From positions 872,501-936,500 of the forward strand of contig NC_019954.2 in assembly GCF_000328765.2 (NCBI RefSeq): 64,000 bases of DNA. The letters are read 5' to 3'. Positions 12,232 through 61,509 of the stretch are shown here, one piece after another. How positions within the stretch are numbered: the first letter of the stretch is position 1; each line of letters opens with the position of its first letter. The translations under genes and the position numbers were made by a program. This stretch comes from Tepidanaerobacter acetatoxydans Re1 (lineage in GTDB: Bacteria > Bacillota > Thermosediminibacteria > Thermosediminibacterales > Tepidanaerobacteraceae). The notes beneath the pieces are model-generated. The model did not search any database, had not been told where the DNA came from, and worked only from the letters and a program-made list of their open reading frames with translations.

Positions 12232-12260
12232 AAAAAATTCCCAGAAGGGAGTTGAGCTTT

Positions 12261-12788
12261 ATGAAATTAAACATCAGCGGTAAAAATTTTACTGTAACAA
12301 AAGCTTTAAAGGACTATGCAGAAAAGAAATTAGGAAAGCTCGAAAGATTCTTCGACAGTGAGGTAGAAGCTCAAGTAACATTAAGTGTCGAAAAAAATCG
12401 GCACATTGTGGAAGTGACTATGCCTATTAATGGCATGCTGCTGCGCGGTGAAACGGAAACCTATGACATGTATTCTTCCATCGACGCTGTAGTGGATAAA
12501 CTGGAAAAACAAATAGAAAAGTATAAGACTAAAACAGCTCGAAACATCAAAAAGAAGTCTTTTGACTACAGCGGAAATGGCAAGAAAGCATCAAATGAAA
12601 ATGAGCCCAGAATTGTAAGAATCAAGAAATTTGCCTTAAAACCCATGGATTTGGAAGAAGCCGTAATGCAGATGGATTTATTGGGTCATGACTTCTTTGT
12701 TTTTTCTAATGCTGAAACTGACGAAGTCAACGTGGTTTATAAGCGCCGCGACGGCAACTACGGTTTGATAGAGCCCGAACTTTTGTAA
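12261..12788 (+). CDS. hpf: Ribosome hibernation promoting factor, long form
   Basis: About 175 residues. The N-terminal HPF/RaiA domain (residues 1-95, starting MKLNISGKNFTVTKALKDY) binds the decoding centre. The C-terminal dimerisation domain (about 118-173, with VRIKKFALKPMDLEEAVMQM) joins two ribosomes into 100S particles. This is the standard long form of Firmicutes. ATG 12261 is preferred over an in-frame TTG at 12252 because the ribosome site AGAAGGGAG covers that TTG. The gene has its own promoter, a hairpin leader and a terminator, so it is monocistronic. Confidence 0.93.
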   Translation: MKLNISGKNFTVTKALKDYAEKKLGKLERFFDSEVEAQVTLSVEKNRHIVEVTMPINGMLLRGETETYDMYSSIDAVVDKLEKQIEKYKTKTARNIKKKSFDYSGNGKKASNENEPRIVRIKKFALKPMDLEEAVMQMDLLGHDFFVFSNAETDEVNVVYKRRDGNYGLIEPELL

Positions 12789-59349: not shown

Positions 59350-59378
59350 TTGCATTTTCTAACAAATGCGGTTATAAT
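59350..59378 (+). promoter_or_regulatory. Strong sigma-A promoter of the structured leader
   Basis: TTGCAT (59350-59355), 17-base spacer, TATAAT (59373-59378). Transcription should begin near 59385, at the edge of the structured region. Confidence 0.8.
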
Positions 59379-59387
59379 TAGTGGTAA

Positions 59388-59513
59388 GGCATAACTTAGG
59401 TCTGTGGTTGAAAGTCGATGCCAGGGCCGGAGGCGAAGCGACTCCCAGAGTGACTGTTTCACTCGGCGGTATACGGCGTTTTTGGGAAAAACCAGGTCAG
59501 CTAAGAAAATGCC
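59388..59513 (+). ncRNA. Structured leader RNA of the zinc-ribbon gene, class unknown
   Basis: GGCAT (59388-59392) pairs with ATGCC (59509-59513) and CTTAG (59395-59399) with CTAAG (59501-59505), closing a domain of about 125 bases. Inside are a GGAG/CTCC hairpin (59429-59445), AGTGA/TCACT (59458-59464 region) and GTTTTT/AAAAAC (59478-59492). No terminator-like T-run follows. I cannot assign it to a known riboswitch or RNA family. The promoter start coincides with the 5' end of this domain. Confidence 0.65.
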
Positions 59514-59545
59514 AATACAACTTTTTCAAAGTGAGGGGTTTTTTA

Positions 59546-59854
59546 ATGGCATTTCAGGACAAAACAATAGTGTGTAAAGAGTGTGGCAATGAGTTTGTCT
59601 TCACTGCAGGTGAGCAGGAGTTCTATGCTGAGAAGGGTTTTGAGAACGAACCCATCAGATGCAAGGACTGCCGCGATGCGCGTAAAAAAAGAATGAACGG
59701 CAACGGCCAGAGAAGGCAGAACAGACAAATGTATGACGCAGTTTGCGCCGACTGTGGAGCAACCACACAAGTTCCCTTTAAACCCAGAAATGATAGACCC
59801 GTATACTGCAGCGATTGTTATCAGAACCATCGTTCGGCCCAAAACGGATATTAA
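59546..59854 (+). CDS. CxxC-x-CxxC zinc-ribbon protein
   Basis: About 102 residues with two treble-cleft zinc sites: CKECGNEFVF with CKDC, and CADCGATTQ with CSDC. The linker is Arg/Asn-rich (KKRMNGNGQRRQNRQM), which hints at RNA binding. Such small zinc-ribbon proteins are widespread in Firmicutes and their role is unknown. ATG 59546 follows GTGAGGGG; an in-frame longer start at 59381 would translate the structured leader and is rejected. A terminator follows. Confidence 0.82.
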   Translation: MAFQDKTIVCKECGNEFVFTAGEQEFYAEKGFENEPIRCKDCRDARKKRMNGNGQRRQNRQMYDAVCADCGATTQVPFKPRNDRPVYCSDCYQNHRSAQNGY

Positions 59855-59869
59855 TAAAAGGGAAAAGCA

Positions 59870-59896
59870 AAGTCCGGTTTTTATACCGGACTTTTT
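59870..59896 (+). terminator. Intrinsic terminator after the zinc-ribbon gene
   Basis: AAGTCCGGT pairs with ACCGGACTT followed by TTT. Confidence 0.85.
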
Positions 59897-59940
59897 CTAT
59901 AAGATTGAAGATTGTATAATGAATTGGCGAGGTGAAAGCC

Positions 59941-61509
59941 TTGAATGGCGGTAGTATTCGGCTGAAAATATCAACGAAAGATAGAGTAGGTATGGTTTTG
60001 GATATTTTAAGATTGCTCTACCAATACAGGGTAAACCTCAAGGCTTTAGAGGTCAGCCCAGGCTTGATATGTATCAAAATTGACGGCAATTTTCAGATAC
60101 CTTTGTCTGATTTGCTGAATGAGTTAAGAGCGCAAAAGGATGTCATTGAAGTAAGCCGTGTAGAACTTTTGCCACAGGAAAAACGTGAAAAACACATAAA
60201 GGCTGTGCTGGATGCTACGGGTGAAGGTATAATCGCAATTGATGCCAAGGGTATAATCACTACTTTTAATCCGGCGGCGGAGAAGATATTAAAGGTCAGG
60301 GCAGAAGATGCTTTGGGTAAAAACATTGCAGACCTTATTTCCGCAGATATTCCCATGTTAAAGACAATAGTCACCGGGGAGAGCTATGATAATGAAGAGA
60401 TGATTATAAATACGGAGAAATTAAAGAGCCATTATATCACATCAGGCCGGCCCATACTTGACGAGGACGGCAACCCTATCGGCGCGGTGGCTTCGCTAAA
60501 GGATATTGAAAGTGTTATAGAACTTGTCCATACTTTTACACAGCCTCCCATGATAACCTTTGATGAAATTTTAGGGGAAAGCAAAGAAATTACTAAGGTA
60601 AAAGAACTTGCAAGGATTGTGGCCAAAGGGGATTCTACGGTGCTTATCAGAGGTGAGAGCGGAACGGGGAAAGAGCTTTTTGCAAGATCCATCCACATGG
60701 CAAGCCCGCGGAGAAATAAACCTTTTGTTGCGGTAAATTGTGCGGCACTGCCTGATACCCTTTTGGAAAGTGAACTTTTCGGATATGAGGAAGGAGCATT
60801 TACAGGTGCAAAAAAGGGCGGCAAACAGGGAATGTTTAAGTATGCCGACAAAGGCACGCTGTTTCTTGATGAGATAGGTGAGCTTTCGACACACCTGCAA
60901 GTGAAATTGCTCAGGGTTTTGCAGGAAAATAAAATCAGGAGGGTGGGTGCCAATGAGGAAATACCTATTGATGTAAGGATTATCGCGGCTACTAACAGAA
61001 ATCTGGAAGAATTGATGAAAAGCGGCCAGTTCCGCGATGATTTGTATTATCGACTTAATGTAATTCCTCTTATAATACCGCCTTTGAGAGAAAGAAAAGA
61101 AGATATTCCCATTCTGACACATGCATTTATCAAAAAACTGTCATATAAAATGAATAAAAAGGCACCGGATATCAGCGATGAGGCTATGCAGTGCCTGATG
61201 GATTATGATTGGCCGGGCAATATACGGGAGCTGTCCAATGTCATAGAAAGGGCAATGAATCTCTGCAATGGCAAAATAGAGTCTTATCATTTATTATTTC
61301 AGCATGATGATTTTAAAACCACAGCCATTATCGGCACGGCAGGTCAAAGAACCTTGAAGGAGATAGTGGCTGAGACCGAAAAACAGGCCATAATAAGCGC
61401 ACTGAGGCAGCATACAAGTATAAGAAAAGCCGCCAAGGCTTTGGGTGTATCTCATGCTACTGTAATCAACAAGATGAAACAATATCAAATAAATCAAGAA
61501 GACATTTAG
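59941..61509 (+). CDS. Sigma-54-dependent activator, TyrR-like (ACT-PAS-AAA-Fis)
   Basis: About 522 residues. The N-terminal ACT domain (1-75, GGSIRLKISTKDRVGMVLDI) can sense an amino acid. A PAS domain follows (about 80-190). The AAA+ domain has Walker A GESGTGKE at 238, the sigma-54-contacting GAFTGA at 285, and DEIGELS. A Fis-type HTH is at the C-terminus (RKAAKALGVSHATVINKMKQ). TTG 59941 follows GCGAGGTGAAAGCC. A -24/-12 promoter and three operator-like sites lie just downstream, so this activator probably controls methionine gamma-lyase. Confidence 0.92.
   Translation: MNGGSIRLKISTKDRVGMVLDILRLLYQYRVNLKALEVSPGLICIKIDGNFQIPLSDLLNELRAQKDVIEVSRVELLPQEKREKHIKAVLDATGEGIIAIDAKGIITTFNPAAEKILKVRAEDALGKNIADLISADIPMLKTIVTGESYDNEEMIINTEKLKSHYITSGRPILDEDGNPIGAVASLKDIESVIELVHTFTQPPMITFDEILGESKEITKVKELARIVAKGDSTVLIRGESGTGKELFARSIHMASPRRNKPFVAVNCAALPDTLLESELFGYEEGAFTGAKKGGKQGMFKYADKGTLFLDEIGELSTHLQVKLLRVLQENKIRRVGANEEIPIDVRIIAATNRNLEELMKSGQFRDDLYYRLNVIPLIIPPLRERKEDIPILTHAFIKKLSYKMNKKAPDISDEAMQCLMDYDWPGNIRELSNVIERAMNLCNGKIESYHLLFQHDDFKTTAIIGTAGQRTLKEIVAETEKQAIISALRQHTSIRKAAKALGVSHATVINKMKQYQINQEDI

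Follow-up and report, generated by a model that had tools for sequence, protein, structure and literature searches.

A compact raiA-derived leader RNA upstream of zf_Tbcl in Tepidanaerobacter acetatoxydans and its order Thermosediminibacterales

The window analysed here is a stretch of 64,000 nt from Tepidanaerobacter acetatoxydans Re1 (NC_019954.2), and all coordinates given without another locus name are positions in it. A compact RNA of the raiA/ModT type lies on the + strand at 59388..59513, between a fliT-like gene upstream and the zf_Tbcl gene (59546..59854, +), whose 102-aa product carries two treble-clef domains (PF13451, PF23477). The RNA is preceded by a promoter (59350..59378, +) composed of TTGCAT, 17 nt and TATAAT. 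Its -10 box (59373-59378) is perfect, but its -35 box (59350-59355) has only three of six consensus matches, which is why a consensus promoter scan remained silent here; the layout TTGC[AT]T, 16-17 nt and TATAAT is nonetheless kept in 17/17 readable relatives. The preliminary description, made from the sequence, had proposed a structured leader RNA under its own consensus sigma-A promoter ending about 30 bases before a zinc-ribbon gene. The structured leader with its own promoter is supported, and the promoter holds up in its TATAAT box and conserved arrangement, though not in its weak -35 box. We infer that transcription starts exactly at 59388, with 59384-59388 as the plausible range. The start codon at 59546 follows the last base of the RNA by 32 nt, as described, and the Shine-Dalgarno region AAAGUGAGGGG (59528..59538, +) is conserved at zf-linked loci of both the compact and the canonical type. 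The terminator scan found no terminator-like site between the RNA and the zf gene in the window. A stem followed by a U-rich tail (59869..59894, +; the same inverted repeat is listed on the - strand) lies 3' of the gene and is the likely end of the RNA-zf transcript, and because it comes after the zf gene, we regard promoter, RNA, zf gene and putative terminator as one unit. In genus g1 the zf frame stays open 5' through the whole RNA (59381-59854, +; 156-158 aa), probably by chance, since this is seen in that genus only and most other proteins have about 105 aa. The zf gene is followed by a gene for a sigma-54-dependent regulator with a PAS and ACT-like N-terminus (59932-61509, +) and then by one for a Cys/Met PLP enzyme.

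The raiA motif is the RNA known as ModT, an abundant RNA that acts in trans on sporulation and the growth transition; its architecture includes P6 in variant 1 and P6-P8 in variant 2. To our knowledge, the range of this poorly understood RNA exceeds 2,500 species. With E-value reporting, the Rfam model RF03072 (raiA) matches the leader at 59391-59509 with 44.8 bits and an E-value of 3.4e-10; the match spans model positions 1-209, and the homology over the full length of the model is thus statistically significant. At gathering thresholds, Rfam gave zero matches across the whole window, because the score lies below the RF03072 gathering score of 101.3 bits, so that a standard scan misses the leader. 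The Infernal search proposed in the preliminary description hence has a double outcome, significant by E-value and empty at the curated cut-off, and the leader, called uncharacterised there, is homologous to the raiA motif. In the whole genome, RF03072 has a single credible match (E 9.4e-10), the next one having an E-value of 5.3. Matches of SNORA16 and PsrR1 to the leader were rejected as chance (E 1.2 and 4.4). The blocks GGUCUGUGGUUGAAAGUCGA and ACCAGGUCAGCUAAG of the leader are identical to their counterparts in several canonical raiA RNAs. We conclude firmly that the leader is a divergent, compact, naturally shrunken and order-specific raiA motif (ModT) RNA, both in its homology and in its reduction. 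We name it a raiA-derived variant and not a full member, because it falls below the gathering score and lacks P6-P8 and the J4-1c element.

The RNA is closed by P1, whose outer and inner 5' strands GGCAU and CUUAG (59388..59399) pair with 59509-59513 and 59501-59505. These are exactly the long-range stems claimed before, GGCAU-aa-CUUAG with CUAAG-aaa-AUGCC (59501-59513), and the several inner hairpins reported inside the domain are present as well. The 5' strands of P1b and P1c, CUG and UGGUU (59402..59409), have the same sequence as in canonical raiA and pair with 59498-59500 and 59490-59494. They are followed by P3 (59414..59442), built of P3a (GUCG/CGAC), P3b (GCC/GGC), an A-rich internal loop and the loop AGGGCCGGA. 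The pk-1 half GCCG (59426..59429) has its partner CGGC at 59474-59477; pk-1 comprises 4-7 bp in all compact sequences and 4 bp in T. acetatoxydans Re1, where the fifth position, which relatives fill with C-G, U-A or U-G, is unpaired. The P4 strand CCCA (59444..59447) pairs with UGGG (59483-59486) and leads into the P5 hairpin GAGUGA-CUGUU-UCACUC (59448..59464).

This structure is conserved in 18 distinct homologues. Across these 18 sequences, 97.5% of cells pair, versus 92.5% after shuffling and 30-46% with the strands slid, and both sides change in 31 cells versus 12.4 in shuffled data (score 0.159 versus 0.076), these controls leaving relatedness in and the alignment having been fitted to the model. 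By element, there are four compensatory pairs in P5 (both-side changes in four of its six pairs), one in P4 (an A-U/U-A exchange between Tepidanaerobacteraceae and Thermosediminibacteraceae) and one in pk-1, at its fifth pair, so that the covariation analysis suggested earlier, in which an absence of covariation would have spoken against the leader, found compensatory changes in three elements. P1 and P3 hardly vary and are therefore backed by sequence conservation only. The fold of the single sequence 59385-59550 is thermodynamically unremarkable (z = -0.43); since this is not significant, folding energy is left out of the evidence and the case rests on the homologues.

Like raiA/ModT of C. 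acetobutylicum and C. difficile, the compact RNA has P1 with GUCUGUGGUUG...ACCAGGUCAG, P3 with GUCGA.GC and the A-rich loop, pk-1, P4 and P5, as well as TATAAT in its promoter. The conserved junction and internal-loop sequences of P1 and P3 are present, and the retained parts comprise P1 including the outer GGCAU/AUGCC extension, P3a, P3b and the P3 loop. Unlike canonical RNAs of about 165-308 nt, it measures 113-121 nt, and its core has 93-104 nt versus 150-291 nt. The signature CCUG...GCAGGC of P6-P8 is found in 0/18 compact versus 28/28 canonical sequences, the J4-1c element GGGG.CAAA in 0/18 versus 27/28, the pk-loop part UUAG..GGUAAG in 0/18 versus 22/28 and the P5-base GUAAGG in 0/18 versus 21/28. 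In C. acetobutylicum raiA, P5 and P8 make A-minor contacts to pk-1, a 7-bp pairing that joins the P3 loop and the pk-loop, while J4-1c forms half of pk-2 (PMC11751092). Because the conserved sequences of the P5-base, pk-loop and J4-1c are missing, pk-2 as described is not recognisable in the compact form.

One compact copy (113-121 nt, 38-59 bits and thus under the gathering score) occurs in 19 of the 22 Thermosediminibacterales genomes, one copy being 110 nt by its Rfam match; none of the 22 has a raiA RNA of normal length or a copy above the cut-off. Three further sampled members of the class with a match all have full-length copies. In the phylum sample, 48/399 genomes match, 36 above the cut-off, 11 with the compact form of Thermosediminibacterales and one (G193) with a long divergent copy, and no compact form was found outside Thermosediminibacterales among the 399. 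Full-length copies are present both elsewhere in the class and phylum-wide, so the compact form is most simply regarded as derived. A covariance model built from Tepidanaerobacteraceae alone recovers those of Thermosediminibacteraceae with 83-102 bits; in the 399 genomes it reaches at least 83 bits only within the order, its best match outside being a canonical RNA at 55 bits. The exact compact pattern occurs in 14 stretches of the genome contig collection, apparently all from Thermosediminibacterales. Two candidates for compact copies were rejected, G044 as a non-homologous sequence without the raiA core, and G193 because its raiA RNA is long and divergent (L158, 1450-1702, 50 bits, directly 5' of zf_Tbcl). 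In G014, a 74-nt relic of compact raiA lies between a fliT-like gene and zf_Tbcl (L084, 1681-1754, - strand). It has kept the promoter, the closing stem, a P3-like piece and the start hairpin and has lost the core GUCUGUGGUUG; its local alignment beats 99.7-99.8% of shuffles with two references and 98-99% with two others, and this genome (99% complete) has no Rfam raiA match.

PMC11706538, citing the 2024 PNAS raiA study, gives comFC and the raiA gene as the usual neighbours of raiA RNA. In T. acetatoxydans Re1, neither comFC nor raiA (hpf) adjoins the compact RNA, which differs from the canonical form in this respect too. An HPF/RaiA ribosome hibernation factor gene lies at 12252-12788 (+), 47 kb from the RNA, and in three genomes of the same class (G022, G023, G025) such a gene lies 2-6 kb downstream of the raiA RNA. 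Judged by the positions of RNA and zf_Tbcl matches, zf_Tbcl follows the RNA directly and in the same orientation in 28 or more of the 48 genomes with a raiA match (11 compact, 17 canonical). Across 33 zf-linked loci representing 10 families, 41-50 nt separate the CAG of the RNA from the zf ATG, and the Shine-Dalgarno context AAAG.GAGGG is shared. Full-length raiA RNAs outside the order (e.g., L005, L006, L007, L009 and L010) also lie 41-50 nt 5' of zf_Tbcl. FliS and FlgN/FliT-like chaperone genes precede the RNA in most zf-linked loci read, and canonical raiA 5' of zf_Tbcl (G022, G023, G025, G046) resembles the compact form in this fliS-fliT/zf_Tbcl order, in spacing and in Shine-Dalgarno context. 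The zf_Tbcl locus, usually behind fliS-fliT, is thus a second genomic setting of raiA RNA besides comFC. Among the papers covered by our search we found no report of this link; both the raiA study of 2024 (PNAS) and the motif study of 2017 may mention it, or short variants. Some canonical loci without zf have a terminator-like sequence directly 3' of the RNA. An obligate RNA-zf_Tbcl partnership was rejected, because zf_Tbcl occurs in 265/399 genomes and the RNA in 48/399; about a quarter of RNA-positive genomes are without zf_Tbcl.

The 3' strand of P1 can also take part in an alternative hairpin (59507..59554, +), in which 59507-59514 (AAAUGCCA, including the P1 3' strand) pairs with 59547-59554 (UGGCAUUU, including UG of the start codon). 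In the compact order, 6-9 contiguous pairs are predicted between the P1 3' strand and the zf start region (UG of AUG, codons 2-3), versus 5-6 pairs in the P1 outer stem. Part of this pairing is expected, because the P1 strand complements GGCAU and the gene happens to begin with AUGGCAUU. For the hairpin from CUAAG to codon 5, a region chosen post hoc and also constrained by P1 and by the protein, z lies between -2.9 and -4.8 in 12 of the 14 compact sequences; the hairpin is weaker in the window (z -1.6) and in L029 of G004 (z -0.7). In 15 canonical loci linked to zf it is not significant (z between -1.7 and +0.9), which sets them apart from the compact form. Forced folds favour the start hairpin over P1 by 0.3-7.0 kcal/mol, leaving uncounted the energy of pk-1 and tertiary contacts, which would favour P1. 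One hairpin pair exchanges A-U for G-C, matching the synonymous codon-3 base TTT/TTC, as a single difference between two families and thus one evolutionary event. Mutually exclusive structures at the start site are predicted and conserved in the order, although weaker in T. acetatoxydans Re1, and their competition suggests a translational switch. When P1, P3, pk-1, P4 and P5 are folded, AAUGCC would be sequestered in P1, leaving the zf start codon free; with an unfolded core, or with a ligand or protein partner absent or differently bound, AAUGCC would pair with UGGCAUU over the start region, and zf translation would be blocked. In translational riboswitches with a P1-strand switch, a strand of the closing stem pairs either in the domain or over the start site. 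The compact leader would resemble them in its predicted architecture.

With moderate confidence, we favour the reading that the compact raiA-derived RNA would serve as the 5' leader of a monocistronic transcript and control zf_Tbcl translation by the putative switch, probably turning it on and off. A leader function is also suggested by the tight spacing to zf and by the start-sequestering hairpin. These features are harder to reconcile with a ModT-like noncoding RNA that acts in trans and has merely been shortened, with read-through or processing accounting for the co-transcription of zf and the hairpin only setting a low basal translation. We hold this serious rival to be less likely, given the constant spacing across 10 families, the window without a terminator-like site between RNA and gene, and the start hairpin sharing the P1 strand, which is strong only in Thermosediminibacterales. 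In its favour, the canonical RNA is trans-acting and complements when placed at another locus; in C. difficile, ModT reaches very high levels, has a sigma-A promoter and comes in both short and long isoforms (PMC11706538). Every compact sequence also retains the ungapped core GUCUGUGGUUGAAAGUCGA and ACCAGGUCAG, the RNA stands alone in comFC-linked canonical loci, some with a terminator-like sequence directly after it, and canonical zf-linked loci do without a significant start hairpin.

It is improbable that the zf_Tbcl protein binds the raiA core, as a binding site or as partner in an RNP, and autoregulates its own translation. Direct linkage of RNA and gene in both forms, the small size of the protein with its two predicted zinc fingers and many basic residues, and in vivo probing suggesting that ModT is protein-bound (PMC11706538) would suit such a role; the uneven occurrence of zf_Tbcl and RNA, the RNA-positive genomes that lack the gene, and the lack of a close solved relative of zf_Tbcl speak against it. 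Half of the canonical RNA is lost, and the G014 relic has shrunk further, as would be expected if raiA were decaying here and its remnant persisted as nothing more than an ordinary 5' UTR. However, the compact core is nearly invariant in two families, and compensatory changes maintain P4, P5 and pk-1, which indicates that the RNA is under selection and leaves decay very improbable.

The miss of a whole order at the curated Rfam threshold means that surveys using it undercount the raiA family. The naturally halved raiA shows which parts are dispensable: it does without the contacts that P8 and the P5-base make to pk-1 and without the J4-1c half of pk-2, all of them highlighted in the cryo-EM structure (PMC11751092). 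The repeated and evenly spaced linkage singles out zf_Tbcl as a gene that raiA RNA may target directly or have as its partner. We propose only tentatively that, across a sizeable fraction of Bacillota, zf_Tbcl is genuinely regulated in cis by raiA RNA, which in Thermosediminibacterales would have been pared down to a minimal sensing core with a start-codon switch. If this is true, the signal and the direct target of raiA could be found by a simple reporter assay.
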